Assembly: GCF_003574625.1 (NCBI RefSeq)
Contig: NZ_QNUJ01000018.1
Location: 1 to 44,402, forward strand
DNA length: 44,402 nucleotides
Direction: 5' to 3'
Source: Shinella zoogloeoides
Lineage (GTDB): Bacteria; Pseudomonadota; Alphaproteobacteria; Rhizobiales; Rhizobiaceae
Every line of letters begins with the position of its first letter. Position 1 is the first letter of the stretch. Below are positions 5,309-23,184 of the stretch, one piece after another. The translations under genes and the position numbers were made by a program. The notes beneath the pieces were generated by a model. It had not been told where the DNA came from. It did not search any database and saw only the letters and a list, made by a program, of their open reading frames with translations.

Positions 5309-5322
5309 ACGACCTTGGTCGT
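5309..5322. promoter_or_regulatory. Palindromic operator candidate, site A
   Basis: ACGACCTTGGTCGT: 6-bp perfect inverted arms around a TT centre, followed by AT. It lies midway between the divergent permease (start 56 bp away) and the NosR-like gene (start 58 bp away), and so could serve both. It is one of seven related sites found only in the intergenic regions of the PQQ block. Confidence 0.7.
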
Positions 5323-5373
5323 ATGGGCGCCCGCCCGCCCGCTGCATAGAAATCGGAGCGGGAGGAACGCGCG

Positions 5374-7488
5374 ATGGGGAGAGGCTTTGGGCTATATGCA
5401 GCGCTGCAGCGCGTTTTTATTATCCTGGTCCTGACCGGCGGAAGCCTGATTGCCGGACTTCAGACCACTCTTGCCGCACCACTCGATCGCGAGGCGCTCC
5501 AGGCGATGATCGTGCCGCCCTATGCCCTTGGCGAAGCCGTGAACGACAAGGGTGTATGGACGCTTCTCAATTCCGGCGGCGCGGAGGCCGGTTATGTCTT
5601 CGAGACCGGTCCCCTCGCCCCGCTTCCCGGCTTTTCCGGCGCGCCCATCGATATGCTCGTGACCATCGACCTCGATGGCCGGTTTCTCGATGTCAGGCTT
5701 GTCTCGCACAATGAACCGATTTTCGTATCCGGCCTCGGCGAAGCACCCCTTCATGCATTTCTGAAGCAATACCGCGGCCATTCGATCCATGAGCCGCTGG
5801 TCGTCGGCACGCCCTATGGCGATGCCGGCAATGGCTCGGACCTCGTCTATCTCGACGGTGTGACCAAGGCGACGGCCTCGGTGCGTATTGCCCACGAATC
5901 GATCCTGGCCGCAACGCTCGCCGTCGCACGCGAGAAGATGCAGGGCGTTGCAAGCGGCCCGCCCGCTTACCCCGACCCGGCGATCGATGAGGCGCTCGAC
6001 TGGGCGACGCTCGTCGAGCGCGGCTATGCCCGCAACCTCAAGGTCACCAACGCGAAACTCGACGCAGCCTTCCGAAAGACCATCTGGGCGCATGACGATC
6101 CCGACGCCGCGGCGGACCCCGAGGGCCTCTATCTCGATCTGTGGGCCGTCGACATCGGGCCTCCGGCCATCGCCAGGGCTGTGCTGAGCAACGACAGCCT
6201 TGCCGATCTTCAACGCCTTCTTCGGGTTTCGCCTGACGACGAACCCGTCCTCGTCATCGACGCAGGCCGCCACGGCCTCGTCTCGCAGGATTTCGTGCGC
6301 AATACGGCGCCGGACCGGCTCTCGGCAGAACAGGACGGCCTGCCCCTCGCGCTGCGTGACGCCGACATGCTGGTGGAGACGCAGGACGGCGTGCCCCACG
6401 GCACGCGCATGGTCCTGCGTATCGACCGCCGCCTCGGCTTCGACCCAACGCGGGAGTGGACGCTGGCGGCGCAGGCCGTGCGCGCGCATGGGATGCTGAA
6501 GCCGGAAAGCGGATCCGCCCATTTCCCGCTTACCCTGAAGGCCGACGGGCAGTTCTTCGGTCGCCCGCAGATCTCAGTTGCCCTGCCCGCATGGCAGGCG
6601 GCGATGGTCTCTCGCAAATGGGATCTCGCCCTTCTCTTTCTTTTGCTTGCCGGCCTGTTCGCCGCCGTCGGTCCGGGCATGCACAGACTTGCAAGGCCTG
6701 CGCAACTGCGCCCTGCGCGGCTCGGCTTTCTCGCCCTCGTCATCGGATTCGTCGGATGGTGGGGCCAGGGCCAGCTATCGGTCGTCACACCGCTTGCCGC
6801 GCTTCGGACGGCAATGGGTGGCGGCAACCTCGCCGTGCTGCTGTACGACCCGTTCTCGCTCATGATCTGGAGCGCGACCATCATCGGCTTCCTGCTCTGG
6901 GGGCGCGGCCTGTTCTGCGGCTGGCTCTGCCCCTTCGGCGCCATGCAGGAATTTGCCCACCACGCCGGCCGCCTGCTGCGACTGCCGCAATGGAACCCGT
7001 CCCCGGCGTGGGACGCCCGGCTCAAGGCCGGGACATGGCTATCGCTCGCGGCCCTCATCGCCATTGCCGTGTTCGCACCGGAAAGGGCGGAAACGGCGGC
7101 CGAGATCGAACCCTTCAAGACGGCCGTCACCACCGGGTTCCAGCGCGAATGGTACTATGTCGCCTATGCCCTCTTCTGGCTGGCCCTCGGTGCGATCACC
7201 TTCAAGGGCTTCTGCCGCTACCTCTGCCCGCTTGGCGCCCTGATGGCGTTGGGCGGCCTGCTCCGCACCCGCAGATGGATCCCGCGACGCGTGGAATGCG
7301 GCTCGCCGTGTCAGCTGTGCCGCGTGCGCTGCCCCTATGGCGCCATCAAGAAGACAGGCCATATCGCCTATTCCCAATGCTTCCAGTGTCTCGATTGCGT
7401 GTCGATCCATGACGACACGGCGCAATGCGTGCCGCTGGTGCTTGCAGCGAGAAAGCGCGCACCGCAGCCGGCGGGAGCCCAGCCATGA
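5374..7488 (+). CDS. NosR/NirI-like membrane flavo-iron-sulfur protein
   Basis: A 704-residue protein with a signal-anchor segment (about 10-30) and a periplasmic FMN-binding domain. The ApbE flavinylation motif DGVTKAT is at about residues 161-167, with Thr167 the likely FMN attachment site. A long soluble middle part follows, then about five membrane helices from about residue 410. Iron-sulfur motifs are CGWLCPFGAMQEF, FCRYLCPLG, CGSPCQLCRVRCPYGAI and CFQCLDC. This is the NosR/NapH/RnfD-like architecture that passes electrons between the quinone pool or cytoplasm and periplasmic partners. No nos genes are present. Instead it overlaps apbE by ATGA and shares the operator-bearing region with the PQQ regulon, so it probably serves electron transfer linked to alcohol oxidation. 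The start has GGAGG at 8 nt. The partner protein is not evident. Confidence 0.85.
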   Translation: MGRGFGLYAALQRVFIILVLTGGSLIAGLQTTLAAPLDREALQAMIVPPYALGEAVNDKGVWTLLNSGGAEAGYVFETGPLAPLPGFSGAPIDMLVTIDLDGRFLDVRLVSHNEPIFVSGLGEAPLHAFLKQYRGHSIHEPLVVGTPYGDAGNGSDLVYLDGVTKATASVRIAHESILAATLAVAREKMQGVASGPPAYPDPAIDEALDWATLVERGYARNLKVTNAKLDAAFRKTIWAHDDPDAAADPEGLYLDLWAVDIGPPAIARAVLSNDSLADLQRLLRVSPDDEPVLVIDAGRHGLVSQDFVRNTAPDRLSAEQDGLPLALRDADMLVETQDGVPHGTRMVLRIDRRLGFDPTREWTLAAQAVRAHGMLKPESGSAHFPLTLKADGQFFGRPQISVALPAWQAAMVSRKWDLALLFLLLAGLFAAVGPGMHRLARPAQLRPARLGFLALVIGFVGWWGQGQLSVVTPLAALRTAMGGGNLAVLLYDPFSLMIWSATIIGFLLWGRGLFCGWLCPFGAMQEFAHHAGRLLRLPQWNPSPAWDARLKAGTWLSLAALIAIAVFAPERAETAAEIEPFKTAVTTGFQREWYYVAYALFWLALGAITFKGFCRYLCPLGALMALGGLLRTRRWIPRRVECGSPCQLCRVRCPYGAIKKTGHIAYSQCFQCLDCVSIHDDTAQCVPLVLAARKRAPQPAGAQP

Positions 7489-8360
7489 AGCGGCGGCGCT
7501 TTCTCTTCATCGCCGCGGCGGCGGCACTTGGCGGCCCTGCGCGGGCCGAGATCACGACATGGCAGGCCGATATGCTCGGCGGTACGGTGCGTATCGACCT
7601 GCGCGGCCCGCGCGCGCTTTCCGCAGATGTCGTGCGCAATGTCGGCGCCACCATAGCCGAGGTCGAGGCCGCAGCCAGTCTGTTCAAACCCGCCTCGGCG
7701 TTGAGCCGTCTCAATGCCGCCGGCCGTCTTGACGAGCCGCCCGCCGCCTTGCTCGATCTGTGCAGCTTGGCCGATGATCTCTACCGTCGTACCGACGGGC
7801 GCTTCGATCCGACGGTTCAACCGCTATGGCGCGCCCTTGCCGAAGGCCGCGATACCGCGGATGCAAGGGCCGCGATCGGCTGGAACCGCGTGCGGATCGG
7901 AACGCCCATCCGGCTCGACGACGGCCAGGCGCTGACCTTCAACGGGCTTGCACAGGGGTATGCGGCGGATCGGGTACGCGCCCTGCTTCGCAAGGCAGGC
8001 TATAATCAGGCTCTTGTCGAAATGGGGGAATACGCAACCATCGGCGGACCATTCACCGTCGCAGTGGAAGATCCGGCCATCGGTGAAGTTGCGGTCCGGC
8101 GGCTGACGGGAAATGCCATCGCGACCTCCAGCCCGGCCGCCATGCGCATTGGCGGCAGCTTCCATATCCTCGGACCGAAGCGTGAGGCCCCATGCTGGTC
8201 AACGATTTCGGTGGAAGCGGAAAGCGCGGCAATGGCAGACGGCTTTTCTACAGCCTTCTGCCTGATGTCCGCCGACGATATCCGCAAGGCAATTGGAAAG
8301 GCCCGCGATGTGATGCGGGTGACGGCGGTGGATTTCGCCGGCGACGTCTCCACTTTCTGA
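7485..8360 (+). CDS. apbE: FAD:protein FMN transferase, ApbE family
   Basis: A 291-residue exported enzyme that covalently attaches FMN to a Thr/Ser of partner proteins in the periplasm. The N-terminus MKRRRFLFIAAAAALGG has an Arg-rich n-region resembling a Tat or Sec signal. ApbE features include a short EVEAAASLFKPASALSRLN segment, TDGRFDPTVQPLW, the LTFNGLAQGYAADRV loop, LVEMGEYATIGG, and the metal-site region AAMADGFSTAFCLM. The ATG overlaps the stop of the NosR-like gene (ATGA), implying coupled translation. That neighbour has the matching flavinylation motif, so it is the obvious substrate. The gene is convergent with the XoxJ-like gene. Confidence 0.92.
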   Translation: MKRRRFLFIAAAAALGGPARAEITTWQADMLGGTVRIDLRGPRALSADVVRNVGATIAEVEAAASLFKPASALSRLNAAGRLDEPPAALLDLCSLADDLYRRTDGRFDPTVQPLWRALAEGRDTADARAAIGWNRVRIGTPIRLDDGQALTFNGLAQGYAADRVRALLRKAGYNQALVEMGEYATIGGPFTVAVEDPAIGEVAVRRLTGNAIATSSPAAMRIGGSFHILGPKREAPCWSTISVEAESAAMADGFSTAFCLMSADDIRKAIGKARDVMRVTAVDFAGDVSTF

Positions 8361-8386
8361 ACGCTTGAGCCCGTTGGCTCAGCGTT
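8360..8386. terminator. Hairpin between convergent apbE and xoxJ-like genes
   Basis: AACGCTTGAGCC (8360-8371) and GGCTCAGCGTT (8376-8386) form a stem with one bulge around a 4-nt loop. It lies exactly between the two stop codons. There is no T-run on either side, so it may act with Rho or as an RNA 3'-end stabiliser. Confidence 0.4.
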
Positions 8387-9275
8387 GCGGCGGCGTGTAT
8401 GTCAGGCCGTATCGTTCAAAAATACGGGCGATTTCACCTTCGGCAAGCGCATTCTCGATCGCCTCGTCAACCGCATAGGCGAGATCCCTGTGCTGGAAAT
8501 TGATGCCGACGCCGATGGTCCAGTGTCCCCGCGCAAAGCCGACCAACGGTGGGGAATGCACCGCCAGTCCATCTTTAGGATGGCGTATCAACCCCGCTTC
8601 CAGTTCAGCGCGCGGCCCCATTGCCGCCTTTGTGTCGCCTTTGGCCAACCCATCCACGGCGGCGGCTGTGGAACGGAAGCGGTGGATCTTGTCGACGGCC
8701 CCGATCAGCGAGGTGAGATAGAAGTCGGCAATCGAGTCATTCTCGACAGCAACGGGGTCAAACCGGAAGAAGGGCGGTGTGGGGCCCTTCTCCTCGTAGT
8801 CGGTGGTGCGATAGGCAATCGCGATATTTTCCGCCGCATATTGCCCGGTGAAGACGACCTGCTCGACTCGACAGACGAGCGCGCTGTCATAGGGCACATG
8901 CAGCATGACATCGCTGACGCGGCCGCCGACGGCAGCCCCCTTCCAGACATAGTTGAGCAGATCGGCCTCGAGATTTTCGCCGGATGCCACGAGCCGGAAC
9001 TTGGCCTCGACGCCGAGGGCCTTGGCGATCAGCCGGCCGATTTCGATATCGACGCCAGCCGCCTTGCCCTTTTCCTCATAGGACCAGGGCGCGTAGTCGT
9101 CATAGACCGCAAACTCGATCCATCCCTCCTCAACGATCCGGTCGAAGCTTCGCCCGACATCCTGCGCGAAGGTGTTCTGAGGCTTCGGCTGGGGTTTGTA
9201 GTCCTCGCAACGCGCAAAGGCGCCGCCCGGAAGGGCGGCGCCGATGATGAAGGCCAGAAGGGTTCTACGCAGCAT
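8379..9275 (-). CDS. xoxJ: Quinoprotein dehydrogenase-associated periplasmic binding protein (XoxJ/MxaJ-like)
   Basis: A 298-residue protein with a signal peptide (MLRRTLLAFIIGAALPGGAFA) and the fold of family-3 solute-binding proteins: IEFAVYDDYAPWSYEEKGKAAGVDIEIGRLIAKALG, then ALVCRVEQVVFTGQYAAENIAIAY, and at the end IGVGINFQHRDLAYAVDEAIENAL. XoxJ/MxaJ proteins sit next to PQQ dehydrogenase and cytochrome genes and are thought to help activate the dehydrogenase rather than to feed a transporter. Here it follows the cytochrome c gene on the same strand with only a few bases between, forming a two-gene operon. The exact role in the ExaF/PedH branch is inferred from XoxJ. Confidence 0.83.
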   Translation of the reverse strand: MLRRTLLAFIIGAALPGGAFARCEDYKPQPKPQNTFAQDVGRSFDRIVEEGWIEFAVYDDYAPWSYEEKGKAAGVDIEIGRLIAKALGVEAKFRLVASGENLEADLLNYVWKGAAVGGRVSDVMLHVPYDSALVCRVEQVVFTGQYAAENIAIAYRTTDYEEKGPTPPFFRFDPVAVENDSIADFYLTSLIGAVDKIHRFRSTAAAVDGLAKGDTKAAMGPRAELEAGLIRHPKDGLAVHSPPLVGFARGHWTIGVGINFQHRDLAYAVDEAIENALAEGEIARIFERYGLTYTPPQR

Positions 9276-9281
9276 GACAGT

Positions 9282-9968
9282 TTACTGCGTGGCGGAAAGG
9301 CCGACGGTCAGCACTTCCGCCGCCTTCTTCCAGGTCTCGGGCGCGTCGGTGAGGATGCGTGCCGCCTCATAGGTCACGCTGTCGGCGATCGGTGCGCCAG
9401 AGGCCGTCTTCACTTCGGCGGCGATCGTCTCCAGTTCCTTCTTGAGCGCGCCGGTATCGGCGACCTTGCCACTGCCCAGTTCATCGCGAATTTCGTGCAG
9501 GCGCTTGGCGTGCTCGTCGAGCGCACCGTCCTCCGGCCGCGTTTCCACATAGGTACGGATCGCCCAGGCCGCCTTTTGGCCGAGGATATCGCCAAAGGCC
9601 GGCATCTTGGTGGTGCCGTCCTGTGTATAGCCGTGGCGGAAGCGCTCGATGAACCACTCGTCACCCGCCTCTTCCGCTTCGAGGAAGCGCAGGTCCGGTG
9701 CAAGTCCGCCGGATACGGCTCCGAGACCATGACAGCGCGCGCAGTTCTGGTTGAAACCGGAGGAGCCGATTTCCACGGCCTTCAACCAGACGTCATGGCC
9801 GGCCTTCGCCTCACGATAGGGATTTTCTGTCAGCCACTCCTCGCCCACCTCTGGCAACGCGTCCGTATTGACCGGCTGCGGCGCCACATCGCCATGGGCG
9901 ATCACCAGGCTCGTCGTTGCCAGAAGGATGGCTGCGGCGATCCCGCCGCGAATGATGTTGGCCGACAT
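9282..9968 (-). CDS. pedF: Cytochrome c-550, PedF/XoxG type
   Basis: A 228-residue periplasmic cytochrome that takes electrons from the PQQ alcohol dehydrogenase. It has a signal peptide (about 1-24, ending SLVIAHG), one haem site CARCH in FNQNCARCHGLGAVSGGLAPDLR, and a candidate Met ligand in TTKMPAFGDILG. The C-terminal part is an acidic helical extension. The ATG at 9968 has GGAGG at 5 nt; the longer upstream reading frame would include the regulatory region. It is transcribed away from operator site B. PedF-type cytochromes are specific partners of ethanol-type quinoproteins, in agreement with the dehydrogenase at 16.6 kb. Confidence 0.88.
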   Translation of the reverse strand: MSANIIRGGIAAAILLATTSLVIAHGDVAPQPVNTDALPEVGEEWLTENPYREAKAGHDVWLKAVEIGSSGFNQNCARCHGLGAVSGGLAPDLRFLEAEEAGDEWFIERFRHGYTQDGTTKMPAFGDILGQKAAWAIRTYVETRPEDGALDEHAKRLHEIRDELGSGKVADTGALKKELETIAAEVKTASGAPIADSVTYEAARILTDAPETWKKAAEVLTVGLSATQ

Positions 9969-10029: not shown

Positions 10030-10043
10030 GCGACCTAGGTCGC
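10030..10043. promoter_or_regulatory. Palindromic operator candidate, site B
   Basis: GCGACCTAGGTCGC is a perfect 14-bp palindrome. It lies 68 bp before the cytochrome start (minus strand) and 24 bp, centre to centre, from site C. The two sites probably control the two divergent operons separately. Confidence 0.7.
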
Positions 10044-10055: not shown

Positions 10056-10068
10056 CACCAAGGTCGTA
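10056..10068. promoter_or_regulatory. Palindromic operator candidate, site C
   Basis: CACCAAGGTCGTA with a weaker left arm; its centre is 57 bp before the start of the binding-protein gene at 10118. The sequence running on from it (GGTCGTATTTCCGTT) is repeated exactly next to site D, on the other strand, in front of the second binding-protein gene. Confidence 0.65.
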
Positions 10069-10117: not shown

Positions 10118-11305
10118 ATGCTGGCAAGTCTCGCAGCGCGCCATCGAGGTCTATATCTCGCGGCAGCGGTCGTCTGTCTGGCGTCGCCAGCTGCGGCGGA
10201 AATCGCCATACCAATGACCTATCTCCGGCAGGAAGTCGCGGCACCGCCGGTGCTCTCCAATCTCGATCCCATCCCCGACGATCGCGGCCTCGCGGGAGCG
10301 GAGGTCGCCCTCACGGACACGAAGACGACCGGCAGCTTCATGGGCCATGCCTACAGCCTCGCCGTCGTCTCGGTCGAACCAGGCGGTGACTTCCTCAATA
10401 CCGCGCGCAAGGTGCTCGCGGCCTCAAAAGTTCTGTTCATCGACGCGACACCAGAGGGCATGCTCGCCGTCGCGGATCTCCCAGAAGCAAAGGGCGCCCT
10501 GCTCTTCAACGTTGCCTCGGGCGCACGGCGGCTACGCGATGCGGATTGTCGCGCGAACCTGCTGCACACCATAGCCGAAGACGCGATGCGTACCGACGCG
10601 CTGATGCAGGTGCTGAAAGCCCGGCGCTGGACGCGGACCGTCCTGATCGTCGGTCCGAAGCCGGAAGACAAGGCCTATGCCGAGACGTTGCGTATCTCAG
10701 CCCAGAAGTTCGGCGTCGATATCCTCGCCTCCAAGAACTGGACCTTCGACACGGACCTGCGCCGCGCCGCCGGCCAGGAAATCCCGCTCTTCACCCAGGA
10801 TTTCCCCGACCATGACGTCCTGCTGATCGCGGACGAGGCGGACGATTTTGCGCGCTATGTCCAGGACAACACCTGGCTCCCGCGTCCCGTTGCCGGCGCG
10901 GATGGTCTTCGTGGCGAGGGTTGGGCGCCCGTGCTCGAGCAATGGGCCGCCGTGCAGTTGCAGAACCGCTTCGAGAAGGCGACAGGCCGCGACATGGGTT
11001 CGCGCGACTATGCTGCCTGGACGGCGCTGCGCACCGTTGGAGAGGCGGTGACGCGCACCAATTCCGCCGATCCCGCGGTGCTTCGCGCCTTCATCCTTTC
11101 CGACAAATTCGCACTCGACGGCTTCAAGGGGCGCAGCCTCAGCTATCGCGCCTGGAACGGCCAGCTTCGGCAGCCGATAGCGGTCGTCAATGCCCGGGCG
11201 TTGGTCGAGCTGACACCGCTCGACGGCTACCTGCACCAGACCAATGAAATGGACACGCTGGGGCTCGACCGGCCCGAAAGCGCCTGCACTGCCTTTGGAG
11301 ATTGA
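10118..11305 (+). CDS. ABC substrate-binding protein of the PQQ-dependent alcohol dehydrogenase system
   Basis: A 395-residue periplasmic protein with a signal peptide (about 1-27, SPAAAEIAIPMTYL). It resembles branched-chain amino-acid-type binding proteins but belongs to the variant that co-occurs with PQQ dehydrogenases (the TIGR03863-type family as I recall it). Recognisable parts are LSNLDPIPDDRGLAGAEVALTDTKTTG near the N-terminus and the lobe containing LFNVASGARRLRDADCRANLLHT. The ATG at 10118 has GGAGG at 7 nt; an upstream in-frame ATG would read through operator site C and is rejected. It heads a run of six genes to 14870 with tight spacing. What it binds is not known to me. Confidence 0.88.
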   Translation: MLASLAARHRGLYLAAAVVCLASPAAAEIAIPMTYLRQEVAAPPVLSNLDPIPDDRGLAGAEVALTDTKTTGSFMGHAYSLAVVSVEPGGDFLNTARKVLAASKVLFIDATPEGMLAVADLPEAKGALLFNVASGARRLRDADCRANLLHTIAEDAMRTDALMQVLKARRWTRTVLIVGPKPEDKAYAETLRISAQKFGVDILASKNWTFDTDLRRAAGQEIPLFTQDFPDHDVLLIADEADDFARYVQDNTWLPRPVAGADGLRGEGWAPVLEQWAAVQLQNRFEKATGRDMGSRDYAAWTALRTVGEAVTRTNSADPAVLRAFILSDKFALDGFKGRSLSYRAWNGQLRQPIAVVNARALVELTPLDGYLHQTNEMDTLGLDRPESACTAFGD

Positions 11306-11306
11306 G

Positions 11307-12272
11307 ATGAGATTCCTTCCTTTGTTGATCGCCCCCCTGCTGGCGGCCGCGCCCTTTCAGGCTTTTGCCGGCGAGATATGGGTGACGAACGAGAAGGACG
11401 ATACGATCTCCGTGATCGACACGGCGACGCTGGAGGTGGTGCGCACTATCAAGACCGGGGAGCGGCCCCGCGGCATCACCTTCAATTCCGACGGCAGCCG
11501 TGTCTATATCTGCGCCTCGGACAGTGACACGGTGCAGGTGATGGATCCGGCGACGGGCGAAATCCTGCACGACTTGCCGTCGGGCGAGGACCCGGAGCAG
11601 TTCGTGCTCGCGCCCGATGACAAGCATCTGTGGATCGCCAACGAGGACGACGCGGTAACGACCGTCGTCGATGTCGAGACGCGACAGGTGGTAGCCCAGA
11701 TCAATGTCGGCATCGAGCCCGAGGGCATGGCCGTATCGCCGGATGGCAAGATCGTCATAACCACCTCTGAAACGACAAACATGGCGCATTGGATCGACAC
11801 GGAGAAGAAGACCATCTTCGCCAACACGCTCGTCGATTCCCGCCCACGGCATGCCGAATTCGCCAAGGGCGGCAGGGAGTTGTGGGTCTCCTCGGAAATC
11901 GGCGGCACGATCACCGTCTTCGACGTCGCAACCCAGGCGGAAAAGGCAAAAATCCGTTTCGAAATTACCGGCGTCAATGCCGACCTCATCCAGCCCGTCG
12001 GATTCGAATTCACGCCCGACGGCAAGAGGGCCTTTGTCGCGCTCGGCCCGGCAAACCATGTGGCCGTCATCGATGCCGAGACCTTTGCCATCGAGAAATA
12101 CGTGCTTGCTGGCCGCCGCGTCTGGCATCTCGCCTTTTCACCTGACCACAAGCAGCTTTTCACCACCAACGGGGTCTCCGGCGACGTGACCGTCGTCGAT
12201 GTCGCGACGCTGGAGCCCATGAAATCCATCAAGGTCGGGCGCTTCCCCTGGGGCGCGGCGACCCGGCCATGA
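11307..12272 (+). CDS. PQQ-associated YVTN-type beta-propeller protein
   Basis: A 321-residue secreted protein with a signal peptide (about 1-20, ending QAFAGEIWV) and seven or so propeller blades of the YVTN type: IWVTNEKDDTISVIDTATLEVVRTIKTG, VYICASDSDTVQVMDPATGEI, LWIANEDDAVTTVVDV, and so on to GDVTVVDVATLEPMKSIKVG. It is the variant found with the PQQ-associated ABC genes (TIGR03866-like). It starts one base after the previous stop (TGAG ATG) and ends 21 bp before the next gene. Possible roles are scaffold or binding partner for the dehydrogenase or the exporter. No catalytic residues can be named. Confidence 0.88.
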   Translation: MRFLPLLIAPLLAAAPFQAFAGEIWVTNEKDDTISVIDTATLEVVRTIKTGERPRGITFNSDGSRVYICASDSDTVQVMDPATGEILHDLPSGEDPEQFVLAPDDKHLWIANEDDAVTTVVDVETRQVVAQINVGIEPEGMAVSPDGKIVITTSETTNMAHWIDTEKKTIFANTLVDSRPRHAEFAKGGRELWVSSEIGGTITVFDVATQAEKAKIRFEITGVNADLIQPVGFEFTPDGKRAFVALGPANHVAVIDAETFAIEKYVLAGRRVWHLAFSPDHKQLFTTNGVSGDVTVVDVATLEPMKSIKVGRFPWGAATRP

Positions 12273-12293
12273 CTTTTCGAAAGGGAGGATAGA

Positions 12294-12752
12294 ATGAAGA
12301 AAGCACTTTTCGCCGCCGTGGCGCTCGCCGCGATGCCATTCGCAGCGCTGGCAGACGACGATGACGACGCCAGGCCAGAGGCCGGCATGGGCCTTGCCGG
12401 CGTTCTCTCGAAATCCAACCGCGAGACTTTGCCGGAGCTGACACTCTCGGCCGGACAACCCATTGCCAAGGGTCCGCTGACGCTGAAATCCGGCAAATAC
12501 TACACGCTCAAGATCGAGGCGGACGGCAGCCAGGAACTGGCGCTGGAGGGCGCAGGGTTCTTTCGCGCCATCTGGGTCAACGAGATCGTCATCGAGGGCA
12601 TCGAGATCCGTCCGCTCGGCGTCGATTCCATCGAATTCGACGAGGCGGGTGAGGCCGAAATCAGCTTCGTCGCGATCAAGCCTGGTAGCTACCACCTGAA
12701 AATTCCCGGTAGCACCGGCGACACCCAGCAAGTCGCCATCACCATAGAGTGA
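12294..12752 (+). CDS. Small secreted protein of the PQQ-ABC operon, cupredoxin-like length
   Basis: A 152-residue exported protein with signal peptide MKKALFAAVALAAMPFAALA, then an acidic stretch DDDDDARPE and a beta-rich body (GPLTLKSGKYYTLKIEADGSQELALEGAGFFRAIW, then FDEAGEAEISFVAIKPGSYHLKIPG). The size and the ending resemble cupredoxins, but the usual copper ligands (Cys and paired His) are absent, so a copper site is unlikely. Acidic patches might bind a cation. It recurs in PQQ-ABC operons as a conserved unknown, to my recollection. It has GGGAGG at 6 nt before the ATG, and its stop overlaps the GTG of the ATPase gene. Confidence 0.8.
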   Translation: MKKALFAAVALAAMPFAALADDDDDARPEAGMGLAGVLSKSNRETLPELTLSAGQPIAKGPLTLKSGKYYTLKIEADGSQELALEGAGFFRAIWVNEIVIEGIEIRPLGVDSIEFDEAGEAEISFVAIKPGSYHLKIPGSTGDTQQVAITIE

Positions 12753-13471
12753 GCACCATGAGCGGCTTGACGGTCGAGGGCATCAGCCATGACTGGGGCG
12801 CGCGGCGTGCGCTCGATGGCGTGTCGTTTACGGTTCAGTCTGGCCGCTTCTGTGCCTTGCTCGGTCCGAACGGCGCCGGGAAATCGACGCTGTTCGGCAT
12901 GCTCACGCGGCTTTTCACACCGCGGGCGGGGCGCATCACCGTTGCCGGGCACGATATGGCCCGCAAGCCCCGCGCTGCACTCGCCCGTATGGGCGTCGTC
13001 TTCCAGGCATCGACGCTCGATCCGGACCTCACCGTCAAGCGCAACCTCCTCTATTTCGCGGCCCTGCATGGTCTGTCGGGGTCGGAGGCGGAGACGCGAG
13101 CAATGGCGGCGCTCGAACAGCTCGGCATGGCAGAGCGCGCCGGCGAAAAGGCAGCGAAACTGAACGGCGGCCACCGCCGGCGCATGGAGATCGCACGCGC
13201 CCTCCTCCACAGGCCGCAGGTCCTGCTGCTGGACGAGCCGACGGTCGGGCTCGACGCGGCCTCGCGCGCAGCAATCACCGCGCATGTGCATGATCTTGCC
13301 GCTGGCGGTTTGACCGTGCTCTGGGCGACCCATTTGGTGGACGAGGTACGGGAAAAGGACCGCCTCGTCGTTCTCCATCAGGGCCGTGTGCTCGCCGATG
13401 GCGAGGCCGGCGAGATCGGTGGCGACGATCTCACAGCCCGCTTCCTTGCATTGACGGGAGAGCGGAGATGA
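12749..13471 (+). CDS. ABC transporter ATP-binding protein, PQQ-alcohol dehydrogenase system
   Basis: A 240-residue cytoplasmic ATPase of an ABC-2-type exporter. Walker A is GPNGAGKST and Walker B VLLLDEPTVGLD. The H-loop His is in ATHLVDEV. The signature loop reads LNGGHRRR instead of LSGGQ, a variation seen in this subfamily (TIGR03864-like). GTG at 12749 overlaps the previous stop (GTGA), and an ATG at 12758 is an alternative start with no better ribosome site. Its stop overlaps the permease start (ATGA). Together they correspond to the PedABC-type export system; the cargo is undetermined. Confidence 0.9.
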   Translation: MSTMSGLTVEGISHDWGARRALDGVSFTVQSGRFCALLGPNGAGKSTLFGMLTRLFTPRAGRITVAGHDMARKPRAALARMGVVFQASTLDPDLTVKRNLLYFAALHGLSGSEAETRAMAALEQLGMAERAGEKAAKLNGGHRRRMEIARALLHRPQVLLLDEPTVGLDAASRAAITAHVHDLAAGGLTVLWATHLVDEVREKDRLVVLHQGRVLADGEAGEIGGDDLTARFLALTGERR

Positions 13472-15490: not shown

Positions 15491-16436
15491 CGGGTAGTTC
15501 CCTGAGGTTCCCGACAAGATCCGCGCCGCCGAGTTCGGCCATGAGGGCGAGCATCCGGGCGGCAGCCTTCTCGTCCACCGCGCCACTCTTCGGCGTGCCG
15601 GCAAGAAAGCCTGCCTTCAGCGCTTCGAATTCGGCGTCGCTCTCCACCTTCATCATCGGTCGGATGCGTTCGAAGGCGGACGGATCGGAGGCAAGTTTCT
15701 CCTTGGCCGCGTGCGAGGCTTTGGCGATCGCCGCGCCGAGACCGGGATGCGCCTTGAGCACGGTACCGCGCACCACATAGCCGACGAGCGGCGTTTCCGG
15801 ATCGAGCCCGAGCGCTTCCGCCGCCTTTTCGACCGGGAGCAGCACGCGCATGCCCGCCGCCTGCATGCGCGCACCGAAATTCCAGAAGTTGAGCGCGCCA
15901 TCGACCTGGCCGTCGAGCGCCGCCTTGTAGATCAGCGGGGGCGCACCGAAGACCTGCTCGCTTTCAACGGCGAGATCAAACCCCTCCACCTTCTGGGCAT
16001 AGGCGCGCATAATCAGCCAGCTCTTGTCGATGGGGCTGCCGGCGACACCGATCTTCCGCCCCTTGAGATCCGCAAGAGCCTTGGCGGAACTACCGGGCGC
16101 CACCATCAATCCGCCGACGGCGCGGGAATAGGGAATGAAGACCAGATCGCGACCAGCCGCGCGTTCCCGCGCCACCCAGAGCCAGTCGGAAACGATCATG
16201 TCCACTTCGCCGGCAATCAGCGCGATCTGCGCCGCCGGTGCACCGGCAATGTCCGTGACCTCCATCGAAAAGCCGTTCGCCTCGTCGAGGCGGTAGTGGC
16301 GGATCGTATCGGCTTCCCAGTTCACCGTACCCGAGAGCTGGAGCGCGGTGCGGACGATCGGTCGTTCGGCAAAAGCAGGCGCAAAGGAAAGGAGCGCGGC
16401 GACGAGCGCGCTCGTGAGCGATCTCATAAAAGTCAT
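15462..16436 (-). CDS. ABC substrate-binding protein, NMT1/THI5/TauA-like
   Basis: A 324-residue periplasmic protein with signal peptide MTFMRSLTSALVAALLSFAPAFA. The fold elements are GFSMEVTDIAGAPAAQIALIAGEVDMIVSDWLWV and VAPGSSAKALADLKGRKIGVAGSPIDKSWLIMRAYAQ, as in taurine/nitrate/thiamine-precursor binding proteins. The ATG at 16436 has GGAGG at 7 nt. It is transcribed away from the alcohol dehydrogenase gene, and its promoter region carries operator sites D and E. The ligand cannot be told from sequence. Given the regulon, a lanthanide chelate, a PQQ-related compound or an alcohol-derived acid are candidates (speculative). Confidence 0.85.
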   Translation of the reverse strand: MTFMRSLTSALVAALLSFAPAFAERPIVRTALQLSGTVNWEADTIRHYRLDEANGFSMEVTDIAGAPAAQIALIAGEVDMIVSDWLWVARERAAGRDLVFIPYSRAVGGLMVAPGSSAKALADLKGRKIGVAGSPIDKSWLIMRAYAQKVEGFDLAVESEQVFGAPPLIYKAALDGQVDGALNFWNFGARMQAAGMRVLLPVEKAAEALGLDPETPLVGYVVRGTVLKAHPGLGAAIAKASHAAKEKLASDPSAFERIRPMMKVESDAEFEALKAGFLAGTPKSGAVDEKAAARMLALMAELGGADLVGNLRELPDGIFYRPGS

Positions 16437-16490
16437 TGTTTCTCCTCCCGCAACCCCGACAGCCTACCGAGCGCCAGGACAAACGGAAAT

Positions 16491-16505
16491 ACGACCTATT
16501 GGTGG
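16491..16505. promoter_or_regulatory. Palindromic operator candidate, site D (degenerate)
   Basis: ACGACCTATTGGTGG: the two halves are separated by 4 rather than 2 bases. Read on the minus strand it continues GGTCGTATTTCCGTT, identical to the flank of site C. Its centre is about 62 bp before the binding-protein start at 16436. Confidence 0.55.
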
Positions 16506-16534: not shown

Positions 16535-16548
16535 ACGACCAAGGTCGA
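16535..16548. promoter_or_regulatory. Palindromic operator candidate, site E
   Basis: ACGACCAAGGTCGA: 5-bp perfect arms (CGACC/GGTCG) around AA. Its centre is 86 bp before the dehydrogenase start at 16628, making it the probable activator site for that gene. Confidence 0.7.
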
Positions 16549-16627: not shown

Positions 16628-18394
16628 ATGAGGAAATTCATTCTGGCCGCAATCGCGGCCATCGCCTGTTCGAGCGCCGCGTATGCCGGCGTGACGGAGG
16701 CCGATCTTGCGAAGGATGCAGAAACCGTCGGCGATGTCCTGACCAACGGCATGGGCCGCAATTTGCAGCGCTTTTCGCCGATGGAGACGTTGAACACCAA
16801 GAACGTCAAGAATCTCGTTCCTGCCTGGGCTTTCTCGCTCGGCGGCGAGAAGCAGCGCGGCCAGGAAAGCCAGCCGATCATTTATGACGGCATCATGTAC
16901 ATCACGGGTTCCTACAGCCGCATCTACGCCATCGACGTCAAGACCGGCAAGGAAGTCTGGCAGTACGATGCCCGCCTGCCGGAAGGCATCCTGCCCTGCT
17001 GCGACGTGGTCAACCGTGGCGCGGCCATTTACGGCGACAATATCTATTTCGGTACGCTCGACGCGCGCCTCGTCGCCCTGAACCGCAAGACCGGCGACGT
17101 CGTGTGGAACAAGAAGCTCGCCGATTACAAGGAAGGCTACAGCTATACCGCAGCTCCGCTGATCGTGAACGGCCTCGTCGTGACGGGCAATTCCGGCGGC
17201 GAATTCGGCATCGTCGGCGAGGTGCAGGCGCGCAACGCTGAGACCGGCGAACTCGTCTGGACACGCCCCGTCATCGAAGGCCACATGGGCACCTTCAAGG
17301 GCAAGGAAAGCACGATGACCGGGACGCTCAACGCGACCTGGCCCGGCGACATGTGGAAGACCGGCGGCGGCGCGACCTGGCTCGGCGGCTCGTATGACGA
17401 GGACACAAAAACGCTCGTCTTCGGTGCTGGCAACCCCTCGCCCTGGAACAGCCATCTGCGCAATGCCGGCAAGCCAGTCGAAGGCAACAAGGGCGACAAC
17501 CTTTATGCCGCCTCGCGCCTAGGCATCGACCCGGAGAACGGCGAGATCAAGTGGCATTTCCAGACGACGCCCCGCGAAGGCTGGGACTTCGACGGCGTCA
17601 ACGAGGTCGTTCCCTTCGTCGACAAGGACGGCAACAAGCGCTTCGCCACCGCCGACCGCAACGGCTTCTTCTACGTGCTCAACCGCGAAGACGGCAAGTT
17701 CGTCTCAGCCCATCCCTTCGTGAAGGACATTTCCTGGGCCAAGGGCATAGATGAAACCGGTCGCCCGATCTACAATGAAGACAACCGGCCCGGCGATGCC
17801 GCTGAAGCAGCCGATGGTGCCAAGGGCCAGCAGGTCTTCGCCGTGCCGTCGTTCCTCGGCGGCAAGAACTGGATGCCGATGGCCTATAGCCCGAAGACCG
17901 GCCTGTTCTACGTGCCCTCCAACGAATGGGGCATGGACATCTGGAACGAACCGATCACCTACAAGAAGGGGGCTGCCTATCTCGGTGCCGGCTTTACCAT
18001 CAAGCCTCTTTTCGACGATCACATCGGCAGCTTGAAGGCAATCGATCCGAACACCGGCGAGATCAAGTGGGAATACAAGAACGGCGCCCCGCTCTGGGGT
18101 GGGGCGATGGCCACCGCCGGCGGCCTGGTGTTCTTCGGTACCCCTGAGGGTGACTTCATCGCGCTGAACAACGAGACGGGCGAGGAACTCTGGAAGTTCC
18201 AGACCGGCTCGGGCATCGTCGGCCAGCCGGTGACCTGGGAACAGGACGGCGAGCAATATGTCTCGATCATCTCCGGCTGGGGCGGCGCCGTTCCACTCTG
18301 GGGCGGGGAAGTTGCCAAGAAGGTCAATTATCTCAACCAGGGCGGCATGGTCTGGACGTTCCGTCTGCCAAAGCAACTGGCCTCGCTGAACTGA
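16628..18394 (+). CDS. exaF: PQQ-dependent alcohol dehydrogenase, ExaF/PedH type (lanthanide signature)
   Basis: A 588-residue periplasmic quinoprotein that oxidises ethanol and other primary alcohols to aldehydes. Signal peptide [20 protein letters not shown]. It has eight propeller blades with tryptophan-docking motifs ([68 protein letters not shown]). The vicinal disulfide pair is Cys124-Cys125 ([10 protein letters not shown]), as in ethanol-type enzymes. The catalytic Asp is D320 in GWDFDGVNE. The second Asp two residues later (D322) is the extra ligand found in lanthanide-dependent enzymes such as XoxF, ExaF and PedH; calcium enzymes have a different residue there. Length and the CC context favour ExaF/PedH over XoxF. 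ATG 16628 has GGAGG at 5 nt. A strong terminator follows. Confidence 0.93.
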
Positions 18395-18428: not shown

Positions 18429-18471
18429 GCTTTCGCCCTGAGCAATAGGCCGATGAAGACGGACGAATTCG

Positions 18472-19194
18472 ATGCTAAGCTATCGCCAGCCCTATCGGGA
18501 ATTTCGCATGTTACCAGTTGTGATGCCGGAAAAACCTGTGCGAGTGCTGAAATCGGCGCTGATCGTAGATGATCATCCGTTGTTCTGCGACGCGCTGGCG
18601 ATGACCCTCACCGGGCCGGTGGGCATCCCCGATGTCGAGGCTGTCGGCACCCTCGAGGCGGCACTGACGCGGCTCAACGCCGGGCCACCGCCCGACGTCG
18701 TGGTGCTCGACCTCAACCTGCCGGACGTCAATGGGCTCGATGGCGTGGTGCGCCTGCGCCATGCCGCGCCGGACACGCCGATCGTCGTCGTGTCGTCCCT
18801 TGACGAGGTCCGCGTCGTGCGCGCGGCACTGAAAGCCGGCATCAATGCCTTTGTGCCGAAACACGCCTCGCGCGAAGAGTTCCGCGAGGCGTTTTCGGTC
18901 ATCGCTCGCGGAGAGATCCACGCGAGCCGACTTGCACTTGAAGCTTCCGCGTCGAGCCCTTCCGAGGAGGCCGTCAAGCGGCTCGCGCTGCTGACGCGTC
19001 AGCAGGCGCGCATCCTGCAACTCGTTTGCGCAGGGCGTATGAACAAGCAGATCGCCTATGAGCTCTCTATCGCGGAGACGACGGTCAAAGCGCATGTGAC
19101 GGCGATCATGCGCAAGCTCGGCGTGCAGACACGCATGCAGGCGGTGCTCTTCGCGCAGGAAGCCAGCTTTGCTACGATGGTGACGGACGTCTAA
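18472..19194 (+). CDS. LuxR/NarL-family response regulator (AgmR/ErbR/PedR-like)
   Basis: A two-component response regulator. The receiver domain (about residues 28-145) has ALIVDDHPLFCDAL, the phospho-acceptor Asp80 in VVVLDLNLPDV, and the conserved VVSSLDEV and PKHAS ends. A LuxR-type helix-turn-helix follows at the C-terminus (LTRQQARILQLVCAGRMNKQIAYELSIAETTVKAHVTAIMRKLGVQTRMQAV). AgmR/ErbR/PedR proteins of this class activate quinoprotein ethanol oxidation genes, so it is the first candidate for binding the repeated GACC-WW-GGTC palindrome. The start is uncertain: ATG 18472 gives 240 residues; ATGs at 18508 and 18523 are nearer the domain, and none has a clear Shine-Dalgarno. No palindrome copy precedes this gene, so it is probably not autoregulated through it. 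Confidence 0.87.
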   Translation: MLSYRQPYREFRMLPVVMPEKPVRVLKSALIVDDHPLFCDALAMTLTGPVGIPDVEAVGTLEAALTRLNAGPPPDVVVLDLNLPDVNGLDGVVRLRHAAPDTPIVVVSSLDEVRVVRAALKAGINAFVPKHASREEFREAFSVIARGEIHASRLALEASASSPSEEAVKRLALLTRQQARILQLVCAGRMNKQIAYELSIAETTVKAHVTAIMRKLGVQTRMQAVLFAQEASFATMVTDV

Positions 19195-19289: not shown

Positions 19290-20441
19290 GTGGATGAACG
19301 TTACATAGATCGCGCGCTGGTTTCCGCGCACGAGACCTGTCCGATCGAACGCTTGGCCGAGCGCCTGGGTGCCGGGCCGTTCTCGCTCGTGCTGCTTTTC
19401 GTTTCGCCCGAAGCGGACGTCTCCGCCGTCGTTGCCGAGGCTGAGAACGCCTGGCCGGGCGCGAAGATCGCCGGCTGCACCACTGCGGGCGAGATTTCTG
19501 GGGATGGCTACGGCGATGAAAGCATCGTCGCCATCGGCTTTCATGCACGCCACTTCGCTGCCGAGACGCTGCTCGTTCCCAACCTCTCGGAACTCGCCGC
19601 CGGCGAGCTTACCGATACCTTGCTGCATATCCGCCAGGCGCTCGCCCGTGACCATGGGCACCTTCCGGAAGAGTTTGCCCTGCTTTTCGTCGATGGCCTT
19701 TCTGCCCGCGAGGACGAACTCGCTTCGGCACTGGCCGCCGCCACCGGTGCGATGCCGCTGATCGGCGGCTCGGCGGGTGACGGCACGCATTTTCGCGAGA
19801 CGCTGGTTTTCGACGGCACGCGGCTTCTGGCGAATGCCGCAGTGATTTCCGTCATCCGCGGCGCCTGTCCGTTGCGCCCGTTCAAGATGGATCACATCAA
19901 GCCGACCGAGCGGCGCATGGTCGTGACGGAGGCCGAACCCGCCGCCCGCATCGTGCGGTGCATCAATGCCGAGCCGGCCGTGCACGAATATGCCCGCCTC
20001 ATCGGCATGGAACCGGAAAGCGTCAACACGCTGACCTTCGCCATCCATCCGTTGACAGTTCGCATGGGCGAGCGCCACCACGTCCGTGCGATCCAGCGGG
20101 TCCTGCCCTCCGGCGAGCTTCTGTTTTTCTCCGCGATCGACGAAGGCATGGTCCTGACCATTGCCGAGCCGCACGATCTGGTCGGACATCTCTCTGCTGA
20201 ATTGCAGACACTCAAGGGACCGGCGGACCCGATCGCCGTGCTCGCTTTCGATTGCATTCTCCGGCGGATCGAGGCGCAGGAACGGCAGATGACCAGCCGT
20301 GTCTCCGAACTCCTTCGCCAGCACGGCGTGATCGGCTTTTCCACCTATGGTGAGCAGTTCGGCCCGATGCACATCAACCACACGATGACTGGCCTGGCTT
20401 TTTATCCGCCCGGAACCATCGTACCGGAAAGCGCCTCATGA
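19290..20441 (+). CDS. FIST-domain sensory protein
   Basis: A 383-residue cytoplasmic protein with the FIST N and C domains, which are predicted small-ligand sensors often paired with kinases. Landmarks: GAKIAGCTTAGEISGDGYGDESIVAIGF, LLFVDGLSAREDELASAL, PLIGGSAGDG, and in the C-part EYARLIG and FSTYGEQFGPMHINHTMTGLAFYP. Translation starts at GTG 19290, with GGAGGAGG 10 nt upstream; the nearby ATG is out of frame. The stop overlaps the ATG of the histidine kinase (ATGA). The FIST protein probably supplies the input signal for that kinase and, through it, for the regulator upstream. Confidence 0.88.
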   Translation: MDERYIDRALVSAHETCPIERLAERLGAGPFSLVLLFVSPEADVSAVVAEAENAWPGAKIAGCTTAGEISGDGYGDESIVAIGFHARHFAAETLLVPNLSELAAGELTDTLLHIRQALARDHGHLPEEFALLFVDGLSAREDELASALAAATGAMPLIGGSAGDGTHFRETLVFDGTRLLANAAVISVIRGACPLRPFKMDHIKPTERRMVVTEAEPAARIVRCINAEPAVHEYARLIGMEPESVNTLTFAIHPLTVRMGERHHVRAIQRVLPSGELLFFSAIDEGMVLTIAEPHDLVGHLSAELQTLKGPADPIAVLAFDCILRRIEAQERQMTSRVSELLRQHGVIGFSTYGEQFGPMHINHTMTGLAFYPPGTIVPESAS

Positions 20442-22630
20442 GCAAACGGATATCCGAAGATTTGCTTGACAGAGGGGACGGCGAGGCACGCAATCTTGAA
20501 AAGATGCTCGTGATCGCTGACGCCCTCATGCGCCAGGTCGAGCAAAGCACAGGCGAACGAGGCGCCGCCTTCGAGCAGTTCCGCCGCGCCGCGGTGCTGG
20601 AGGATCGGGTACGTCAGCGCACACACGATCTGGAAGCGACTCTGAAGCTTCTGAATGAGGCCAATAGTGCCGCTGAGCGCGCGCGCCATGACCTGTCGCA
20701 GGCCATCGAGGCGATCGAGGAAGGGTTCGCACTCTTTGATCCGGCGGAAGTCCTTGTAATGTGCAATTCGCGCTTTTGCCGAGATCTTACGGATGTGCGG
20801 GAGAAGTTCCTTCCAGGCATCACCTTCACCGATTATGTGGAGGCGGCCAGCCGCTCGGCCGTTCTTGCTCTTCCGAAGGGTATGACAGCGAAAGCCTGGG
20901 CGGCTGAGCGTATTCGGCTGCGCCATACGCGTCAGGTATTCAATGTCGGCCTTAGGGGCGACCGCTGGCTCCAGGTCAGCGAGCAGCGCACTGCCGACGG
21001 CGGTACCGTGATCCTCCAGACCGATGTTACGGATATCATTCGCATGGAGCGATCAGAGCGGGGCAAGCTGCTGGACGATCAGGCCCGCATGATTCGTGCC
21101 ACGCTGGAGCACATCAACCAGGGCGTCGGAATCTTCGACGCCAACCGGTGCCTCGTCGGATGGAACAGCCGCATCGCCCAATTGCTCGACATTCCCGCCC
21201 GCCTCCTGCGGCGCGGTATCTCATTTGAAATGCTGGCCAACCATATCCGACATGCCATTACGCTCGGCGACGGCTTTTCCAGCGAGATGCTGCGCCAATG
21301 GATCGATGGCGGATTGCCGCGCCGCCCCCTCTCCTTCGAGTTCACCCACGCGTCCGGCATCATCCTTGATGTCTTCGCGCAGGAGATGCCCGGGCGCGGC
21401 TTCGTGATGTCCTTTGCCGACGTGACGCGCGAGCGGCAGGCAATCCACGCCATGATCCGCGCCAACAACTCGCTGGAAGCGCGCGTCGCCGCCCGAACGG
21501 GAGATCTCGCAGCGGCATTGGCGGAGGCCGAGCGCGCGAATACCGCCCGTGTTCGCTTTGTCGCGGCCGCCAGCCACGACCTTCTGCAGCCGCTTTCGGC
21601 GGCCAAGCTGTTCGTTGCCGCGGCACGCGACGACGCGGAGCAGACCCCGCTGCGCGGGACGCTGGAAAAGGCGCACAACGCTCTTGTCAGCGTCGAGAAC
21701 ATTCTGGGGGCCCTGCTCGACATCTCGCGCCTGGAGGCTGGCGGCACGGCGATGGATGTCGGCCCCGTCTCGCTTTCGCTGCTTCTGCGCCAGCTCACCG
21801 ACGAATTTGCGCCGATCGCAGCCGGCAAGGGGCTGCGGCTCGACATCCTGCCCTGCGCGCTCACCGTATCAAGTGATCCGACCTATCTGCGCCGCATTCT
21901 GCAGAACCTGATCAGCAATGCGATCCGCTATACGGCCAGCGGACGCATTCTTGTCGGTCCGCGCCGCGCTGGCGGGCAGGTGCGCATCGAGATCCACGAT
22001 ACCGGGCCGGGCATCGCACCCGACCAGCAGCAGGCGATCTTCCGCGAGTTCCATCGCGTGCAAGGCTCCGCCTCGGCGTCGGAGGGCATGGGGCTCGGCC
22101 TGGCCATCGTCGAACGTGCCTGTGCGCTTCTCGGACATCGGTTAGCCTTGATCTCGCGGCTCGGGGGCGGCACCTGCTTTTCCGTGGAACTGACCCCTAT
22201 GGCGTATCACGCAAGCCCGACCTATCGTGAGGCGACGCCGGTCATTCCCGACGAGCCCGGCGACAACAGCGACCGTATCGCCCTTCTCGTCGAAAACGAC
22301 CTCGATTTGCGCCGGGCGATCGCGCTGCTGCTCGAGCGACGCGGCGTCAGCGTTCTGGAGGCCGCAAGCGGTGAGGAAGCGCTCTCGCTGCTGGAGGAAA
22401 TCGGCATCGTACCGGACCTCTATCTGGTCGATCAGCAGCTTGACGGCGTCATGACCGGCATAGAGACCGTCGAGGCCCTGCATGCGCAACATGGCGAACG
22501 TCCGACCCGCATTCTGACGGCCGATCGCAAACCGCAGACGCGGATGGCGGCCGAAGCGGCGGGCATCGAGATCATGTACAAGCCAATTGCCGCCGATGCG
22601 TTGGAGGCCTTCGTCCTGCATGCCGGGTAG
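20438..22630 (+). CDS. Hybrid histidine kinase with two PAS domains and a C-terminal receiver
   Basis: A 730-residue kinase without membrane segments. Order: coiled coil (about 10-90), PAS (about 90-205; [19 protein letters not shown]), PAS (about 215-335; [21 protein letters not shown]), coiled coil, and a HisKA domain with phospho-acceptor His380 ([14 protein letters not shown]). A HATPase domain follows ([50 protein letters not shown]), then a receiver (about 610-730) with Asp near residue 665 ([10 protein letters not shown]) and the MYKPI lysine. It is similar in layout to NahK/ErcS' kinases that govern quinoprotein ethanol oxidation in pseudomonads. It is coupled to the FIST gene. The cognate regulator is probably the LuxR-type protein at 18472, directly upstream. 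Confidence 0.9.
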
Positions 22631-22643
22631 GCCGCGAGGCTGG

Positions 22644-22656
22644 CACCAAGGTCGCA
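22644..22656. promoter_or_regulatory. Palindromic operator candidate, site F
   Basis: CACCAAGGTCGCA, centred 65 bp before the pseudoazurin start. It has the same weak-left/strong-right layout as site C and lies just after the kinase stop codon. Confidence 0.65.
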
Positions 22657-22713
22657 TTGCGAGGCCAGCCGACCCGTGAGACACCCCTCCAAACTGACTT
22701 GGAGGAGATGGAC

Positions 22714-23154
22714 ATGAAGAATTTCATCACAATAGCAACCGTAATGGTCCTTGCAAGCGGCACAGCCCAGGCTGCCGAGCATGTGGTCAAGATGATGAAC
22801 AAAGGCGACAGCGGCAACATGGTCTTCGAACCCGCCGCGATCGCCGCCGCCCCGGGCGATACGATCCACTTCATCCCGACGGACAAGAGCCACAATGTCG
22901 AGAGCATCAAGGGCATGCTTCCCGATGGCGTCGAGCCCTTCAAGAGCAAGGTCAACGAGGAATATGTCCTGACCGTGTCTTCCCCCGGCATCTACGGCGT
23001 GAAGTGCTCGCCGCATTTCAGCATGGGCATGGTCGCGCTCATCAAGGTCGGCGACAGCCCGGCCAACCTGGAGGCGGCAAAGGCCGTCAAGCTGCCGGCA
23101 AAGGCCGGCGAGCGCATGAAGGCGGCCTTCGAAACACTCGCCGCCGCGCAATAG
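22714..23154 (+). CDS. Pseudoazurin (blue copper electron carrier)
   Basis: A 146-residue secreted cupredoxin. Signal peptide [20 protein letters not shown]. Copper ligands are the His of DKSHNVES and, in the C-terminal loop [13 protein letters not shown], Cys, His and Met. It transfers electrons in the periplasm between the alcohol dehydrogenase or its cytochrome and a terminal oxidase or other acceptors. ATG 22714 has GGAGG at 8 nt; the ATG two codons earlier sits too close to the Shine-Dalgarno. It is a monocistronic-looking gene between sites F and G, which places it in the PQQ regulon rather than in a denitrification context. Confidence 0.92.
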
Positions 23155-23169
23155 GTCCGCCCCATATAG

Positions 23170-23184
23170 AGACCTTGGTCGCAT
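23170..23184. promoter_or_regulatory. Palindromic operator candidate, site G
   Basis: AGACCTTGGTCGCAT: core GACC-TT-GGTC, centred 76 bp before pqqA. It would tie PQQ synthesis to the same regulator as the dehydrogenase. Confidence 0.7.

Follow-up and report, generated by a model that had tools for sequence, protein, structure and literature searches.

The question raised by this locus is whether a short palindrome that recurs between its genes is an operator and, if so, which regulator reads it and which genes it joins. The locus lies in a 44,402-bp stretch of DNA from the soil bacterium Shinella zoogloeoides (contig NZ_QNUJ01000018.1; hereafter the window), which carries a block of genes for pyrroloquinoline quinone (PQQ) synthesis and alcohol oxidation. 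A sequence-only reading of the window had proposed that the palindrome is a shared operator defining a PQQ/alcohol-oxidation regulon, with the LuxR-type regulator encoded at 18472 as its binder, and this proposal is supported, for the binder indirectly: the sites are conserved before orthologous genes beyond permuted controls, are scarce in the genome and located almost exclusively in the block, co-occur with the 18472 regulator, and are followed by a −10-like element at a fixed spacing. To judge from sequence, the palindrome is a real, conserved operator for a regulator of a familiar type, and the regulon is broader than any described in the literature searched.

Palindromic sites occupy the promoters of the PQQ block

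Direct reading found six palindromes of the form [GC]ACC-WW-GGTC and one degenerate copy where the earlier reading had placed its seven sites; as it had claimed, each of the five promoter regions in the PQQ block contains at least one of them. GACCTTGGTC lies at 5311–5320 (no strand assigned), between the ABC permease gene (start at 5260, minus strand) and the NosR-like gene (start at 5374, plus strand). The divergent region between pedF and the PQQ-ABC operon holds two sites, GACCTAGGTC on the pedF side (10032–10041, no strand assigned) and CACCAAGGTC on the PQQ-ABC side (10056–10065, plus strand). GACCAAGGTC (16537–16546, no strand assigned) is upstream of the exaF-like PQQ alcohol dehydrogenase gene, a second copy of CACCAAGGTC (22644–22653, plus strand) is upstream of the pseudoazurin gene, and a second copy of GACCTTGGTC (23171–23180, plus strand) is upstream of pqqA. 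The degenerate copy, CACCAATAGGTCGTAT (about 16489–16504, minus strand), precedes the gene for an SsuA-like binding protein; its gene-side half is conserved, and its halves are 4 bases apart compared to 2 in the regular sites. Centre-to-start distances of 58/56, 68, 57, 86, 65, and 76 bp were reproduced with the start codons used previously.

The 8-bp core ACCWWGGT occurs in the 44,402 bp at the six sites only. When one mismatch was allowed, GACCWWGGTCG had 11 matches in the window (palindromes counted on both strands) compared to 3.1 expected, a number reached by 0 of 100 shuffled windows, and exact GACCWWGGTC occurred four times compared to a mean of 0.1 and a maximum of 3 in 200 first-order Markov sequences. 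Three further 10-mers come within one mismatch: one inside the FIST gene (19650), one inside the pseudoazurin gene (22944), and one in a stretch of open reading frames (30002). With the threshold applied, a symmetric position matrix recovered the same six sites in the window and no others; it was built from 72 sites that include those of the window, and its recovery of the six is therefore partly by construction.

Across the 5.375-Mb genome, the strict pattern ACCWWGGTCNNAT has 10 matches, of which six are the operator sites of the window and four sit within predicted reading frames (one of 135 residues, the others long). Strict-pattern sites occur nowhere else between genes in this genome, a near-exclusive location, and the equal frequency elsewhere that the earlier reading had named as grounds for abandoning its proposal was looked for and not found. 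The plain 11-mer GACCWWGGTCG is unspecific (43 strand-counted genome-wide matches vs. 29 for the reversed pattern), suggesting that much of the specificity comes from the flanking NAT and from where the site lies in the promoter.

The site is conserved before orthologous genes

Conservation was scored in the best 80 of 569 loci around relatives of the 18472 regulator, taken from named genomes; 10 of these loci are Rhizobiales-type and the other 70 Rhodobacterales-type or unassigned. Close relatives among them are not independent, and the counts are to be read with this in mind. We scored the 250 bp upstream of each gene for GACCWWGGTC with at most one mismatch, used 11 other arrangements of the half-site letters as controls, and dropped genes whose blast match begins beyond residue 40 or whose upstream stretch is missing. 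Among Rhizobiales loci, the site precedes exaF in 10/10 cases (best control 1), pedF in 8/8 (1), the PQQ-ABC operon in 8/8 (2), the pseudoazurin gene in 10/10 (2; also in the one Paracoccus locus scored, 1/1), pqqA in 4/5 (1), and the SsuA-like gene in 7/7 (3; a region common with exaF). Rhodobacterales-type loci have it before the PQQ-ABC operon in 25/26 cases (best control 4), before pedF in 24/29 (4; many regions common with PQQ-ABC), before nosR in 7/8 (0), before the ABC permease gene in 6/8 (1; a region common with nosR), before pqqA in 3/5 (2), and before the SsuA-like gene in 3/7 (2). A lack of conservation before orthologues, the other result that would have spoken against the earlier proposal, was not what we observed; permuted palindromes reach at most 4/26 for PQQ-ABC. 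Genes internal to operons were mostly at control level, with Rhizobiales exceptions for the 152-residue protein (3/8; best control 0), the ABC ATPase (2/9; 1), and pqqB (4/6; 1), for which the pqqA promoter is within reach. We regard the conservation evidence as strong for nosR, pseudoazurin, and PQQ-ABC/pedF, and among rhizobia also for exaF and pqqA.

The degenerate copy at 16491 is also real: all 7 of the 7 rhizobial loci that have this promoter retain AGGTCGTAT upstream of the SsuA-like gene, and 5/7 Rhodobacterales-type loci retain GGTCGTATT there. Cores are conserved while flanks, neighbouring genes, and the spacing of paired sites diverge widely between the groups. In the pedF/PQQ-ABC region, the paired sites are 24–25 bp apart in rhizobia and 29–44 bp apart in Rhodobacterales-type loci, and this variable spacing suggests that each site probably serves one promoter.

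The operator resembles a 7-2-7 site, probably centred near −44

Outer columns of 96 distinct sites have T at −3 (0.65) and A at +13 (0.88), extending the palindrome to TNCGACC-WW-GGTCGNA, and the column profile is symmetric, with two inverted heptamers around a 2-bp centre. NarL sites likewise consist of two heptamers with a 2-bp centre (7-2-7), and the solved structures closest to the regulator include those of NarL and DevR/DosR. The likeness lies in the two inverted heptamers 2 bp apart with an outer T...A, whereas the heptamer differs, being TNCGACC here and TACYYMT for NarL.

Downstream of 108 sites, AT frequency is ~0.3 but peaks at 0.90 at +32.5, 0.69 at +33.5, and 0.67 at +36.5 from the centre, and TANNNT begins at +31.5 or +32.5 in 27 of these promoters compared to 0.7 per offset after shuffling. 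A −10-like element lies 31–33 bp downstream of the site in two unrelated promoter sets, the PQQ-block type and that of coxG (see below). This fixed spacing would place the site centre near −44, and the palindrome is best modelled as a NarL-type 7-2-7 site at that position. By the same reading of the −10 element, a −35 element separated from it by 17 bp would fall on the T(T) after the outer operator A; this −35 is a poor one, with no TTGAC in the column counts. The trailing bases that had been described as a usual following YAT are present, but they are better read as the outer operator A and the start of this weak −35.

The 18472 response regulator is the likely binder

The palindrome is probably bound by the response regulator encoded at 18472–19194 (plus strand), which has the receiver and the C-terminal GerE/LuxR helix-turn-helix of the NarL/FixJ family (Response_reg 76.9 bits, GerE 69.4 bits, both above the Pfam cut-off). 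It is followed by a gene for a FIST-domain, NosP-like protein (19290–20441, plus strand; 356 bits, below the NCBIfam NosP equivalog cut-off of 450) and by one for a PAS hybrid histidine kinase, NahK/ErcS'-like with a match below family cut-offs, which is the proposed cognate kinase (20438–22630, plus strand). Regulator, FIST gene, and kinase are adjacent in 77/80 loci; the exceptions are L041 (without the FIST gene), L090 (without both), and L081 (separated). The recognition helix IAETTVKAHVTAIMRKL is identical in 82/90 loci with a regulator of at least 50% identity. Indirect support for the 18472 regulator as the binder comes from what PQQ loci share with Cox loci that have the same operator, namely the regulator, the FIST protein, and the kinase.

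We compared the presence of the regulator and of the site in two genome samples. In the class sample, 93/385 genomes match the PQQ-ABC binding protein, and 49 of the 54 with E ≤ 1e-100 were used (G023, G125, G191, G310, G313, and 39 weaker matches were left out). A regulator of at least 50% identity is present in 3/49, and the site precedes the PQQ-ABC gene in 3/3 genomes with it compared to 1/47 regions without it. In the Rhizobiaceae sample, 81/297 genomes match PQQ-ABC, of which 70 were searched and 11 left out; one gene copy was taken per genome, two for G611, and further copies in G441, G449, G510, and G544 were left out. A regulator of at least 84% identity is present in 7/70, the other genomes having at most 48%, and a site lies within 450 bp of the PQQ-ABC gene in 7/7 genomes with the regulator (the window's own genome included) compared to 7/64 regions without it, a fraction within the permuted-control range at one mismatch (up to 11/70). 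Fisher's test gave 2.6e-6 for 7/7 vs. 7/64 and 1.3e-5 for 6/6 with the window's own genome excluded. Among the 64 PQQ-ABC promoters from genomes lacking the regulator, no shared palindrome stood out.

The same operator precedes coxG operons

A coxG start could be scored in 39 of the 80 loci, 30 of which have no exaF in the stretch. A palindrome within two mismatches lies at −55 to −67 before coxG in 30/39 cases compared to 0–3/39 for the eleven controls, and one within one mismatch lies anywhere in the 250 bp in 14/39 (best control 5). A −10-like AT peak of 0.84 at +32.5 was found in 32 coxG promoters chosen by half-site pattern, a few of them probably misaligned. Example sites in L076, L089, L094, L099, and L055 stand ~60 bp before a coxG-coxS-coxL operon of form-II type that adjoins the regulator-FIST-kinase trio. 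One Cox large subunit contains AYRGAGR, which we take to be the form-II signature.

This reuse of the operator before form-II-type Cox operons is the most interesting side result. It offers a regulatory clue to those enzymes. We suggest, tentatively and with more doubt than belief, that one FlhR-type regulator/operator pair with a NosP-like partner may govern oxidation modules that can stand in for one another: some lineages would have it control clusters for PQQ alcohol dehydrogenase, others a form-II 'CO dehydrogenase' (coxG-S-L), and a few both. The form-II Cox enzymes there might then be oxidoreductases of aldehyde or alcohol pathways and not carbon monoxide (CO) oxidases, and the NosP-like part might link the pathway with nitric oxide or redox state, which would accord with the pseudoazurin and NosR-like/ApbE genes of the regulon. 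The ability of form-II enzymes to oxidise CO is called uncertain in the available text of PMC5747140.

Relation to known two-component systems

The available text of PMC4776306 describes flhR-orf2-flhS, afdR-afdT-afdS, and rfdR-rfdT-rfdS as sharing more than 50% similarity and controlling formaldehyde dehydrogenase genes, and that of PMC8879981 has FlhRS control methanol oxidation. The window trio resembles FlhRS of Paracoccus denitrificans and AfdRS/RfdRS of Rhodobacter sphaeroides in its order of regulator, intervening reading frame, and hybrid kinase, and in its LuxR-type regulator, theirs controlling one-carbon or alcohol oxidation as far as those texts describe it. The window regulator is 71% identical to a P. 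denitrificans regulator that may or may not be FlhR itself. In Paracoccus loci, a relative of the regulator stands beside a XoxF-type gene, and a weak site, ATACGACCATGGCACAAT, lies near the start of a cytochrome operon in two species.

A second likeness is to Pseudomonas, where, according to the available text of PMC12997753, the ped and pqq genes are under the control of AgmR, whose gene lies close to those of NosP and PedS1. There, too, a LuxR-type regulator (AgmR/ErbR) stands beside a NosP-type protein and a hybrid kinase (PedS1/ErcS'), a similar logic that we liken by that description and not by AgmR sequence. The ErdR model scored 161 bits on the window regulator against a cut-off of 390, and a survey on the gammaproteobacterial scale found outside the class only regulators of at most 46% identity.

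The literature searched yielded no operator description for FlhRS/AfdRS/RfdRS, although Harms 2001 and Hickman 2004, which lie outside that search, may define sites; nor did it yield a description of the window operator. Queries on motif spellings returned one unrelated match, and the titles listed for GACCTTGGTC included none on PQQ regulation. PMC12628762, on rhizobial XoxF, does not contain the regulator terms sought, and the available parts of PMC9927353 and PMC8041468 contain no AgmR motif that we could find. The palindrome would thus supply a defined operator for an alphaproteobacterial two-component class without a binding site in the literature searched, and a single regulon would tie together PQQ synthesis, PQQ alcohol dehydrogenase, its cytochrome, pseudoazurin, and the NosR-like/ApbE pair.

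A model for activation and its alternatives

We consider it probable that the palindrome is the operator of the 18472 regulator and that a phosphorylated dimer on the 7-2-7 site activates the PQQ regulon under kinase/NosP-like input. The dimer would bind the two heptamers of TNCGACC-WW-GGTCGNA and, positioned near −44, would touch the weak −35 and activate transcription as a class II activator. The adjacent NahK/ErcS'-like hybrid kinase would phosphorylate the regulator upon a signal derived from an alcohol or aldehyde, the NosP-like FIST protein may tune the kinase, and the genes for the dehydrogenase, cytochrome, PQQ synthesis, PQQ-ABC, pseudoazurin, NosR-like/ApbE, and importer would be switched on together.

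Several results weigh against this model or narrow it. No palindrome lies upstream of exaC in the window, and Rhodobacterales-type loci have the site before exaF in only 6/29 cases (best control 3), before exaC in 2/6 (2), before the FIST gene in 8/68 (11), and before the regulator itself in 8/70 (9); in that group the conservation evidence is weak for exaF, exaC, and autoregulation. The enrichment before exaF, pqqA, and pedF orthologues suggested earlier was thus clear for pedF in both groups and for rhizobial exaF and pqqA and weak for Rhodobacterales-type exaF, and membership of the regulon differs by lineage. Class-III formaldehyde dehydrogenase promoters (30 regions in 26 regulator-bearing genomes) have 0 exact palindromes and 2/30 within one mismatch (best control 5), so that the published FlhR/AfdR target is not explained by the window operator. 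We therefore rejected the idea that the operator is simply the published FlhR box, as promoters of the flhA/adhI type lack the site beyond controls; by this test, which leaves room for indirect control, the formaldehyde dehydrogenase targets of FlhRS/AfdRS/RfdRS differ from the PQQ alcohol dehydrogenase block here. The association of regulator and site also follows, in part, the co-inheritance of the cluster, and exact palindromes occur in three of the 64 PQQ-ABC upstream regions without the regulator, with none in permuted controls.

These three palindromes favour a different binder, such as the AcoR/Fis-type regulator at 3388–4347 or the NarL-type paralogue C26:50680 (42% identity), as do the place of the AcoR-type gene (named by reading) inside the window beside exaC and the parts of the recognition helix that related regulators of 36–46% identity have in common; exact sites without the regulator or control counterparts suggest that related regulators may share some specificity. 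However, AcoR has no tblastn match in the 80 loci (the rhizobial stretches do not reach its place), and the site tracks the regulator of at least 50% identity, genomes with lower-identity relatives only being at control level. Sigma54 activators are not expected at sites near −44 with a sigma70-like −10, and an activator of that kind would misfit here. We judge a different binder distinctly unlikely.

That the 18472 regulator binds but represses, the site overlapping the −35 and phosphorylation relieving or imposing the block, is unlikely in our view, although the preference for activation comes from the position of the site alone. The site does touch the putative −35, and the available text of PMC4776306 has the related RfdRS repress adhI; FlhRS and AfdRS are described as activators in the available text of PMC4776306 and PMC8879981, and a poor −35 is typical of activator-dependent promoters. 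Chance, or non-operator remnants of a recently transferred gene block, would suit the few Rhizobiaceae PQQ-ABC genomes that have the regulator (7/70). This explanation is largely refuted and in our estimate extremely improbable: the cores persist even where regulator identity has dropped to 50–60%, with flanks, neighbouring genes, and the spacing of paired sites (24 to 44 bp) all altered, and the site also precedes a non-homologous operon, that of coxG.

Genes of the block and further sites

On the left of the block, domain searches identified the ABC permease of the split importer (4466–5260, minus strand) and ApbE (7485–8360, plus strand), between which lies the NosR-like membrane protein gene (5374–7488, plus strand; 431 bits vs. 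a cut-off of 1000). NosR-like, NosP-like, and NahK/ErcS'-like are so named because their matches are clear but below cut-offs. The solute-binding-type protein at 8379–9275 (minus strand) matches SBP_bac_3, and its name XoxJ-like is that of the earlier reading; cytochrome c550 PedF (9282–9968, minus strand) scores above its model cut-off. The PQQ-ABC operon (10118–14310, plus strand) encodes a binding protein, a beta-propeller protein, the 152-residue protein, an ATPase, and the PedC permease, with four genes above the cut-offs of curated models. The SsuA-like binding protein of the split importer (15462–16436, minus strand) is a weak match below cut-off. The exaF-like PQQ alcohol dehydrogenase (16628–18394, plus strand; TIGR03075, above cut-off) has a GWDFDG motif and is presumably of the lanthanide type. 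Pseudoazurin (22714–23154, plus strand) is above its model cut-off, and in pqqA-E (23252–26372, plus strand) PqqC and PqqE are above cut-off and pqqA and pqqB were assigned by reading. ExaC acetaldehyde dehydrogenase (1728–3251) is above its model cut-off.

A few sites stand out singly. L091 and L105 have an exact palindrome ~150 bp before exaC, within the control range overall, and in L041 (Paracoccus caeni), the locus without the FIST gene, a high-scoring palindrome at position 9860 is upstream of the regulator itself. A search for further regulon members in 22 regulator-bearing genomes gave at least 206 strict matches compared to 28 for the reversed pattern; in 15 of 20 stretches picked among the strict matches listed, the site is inside a predicted reading frame. 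In a single case, in a Paracoccus genome (L306; G388:C2:31659), a strict site lies ~150 bp before a reading frame that by eye resembles acetyl-CoA synthetase.

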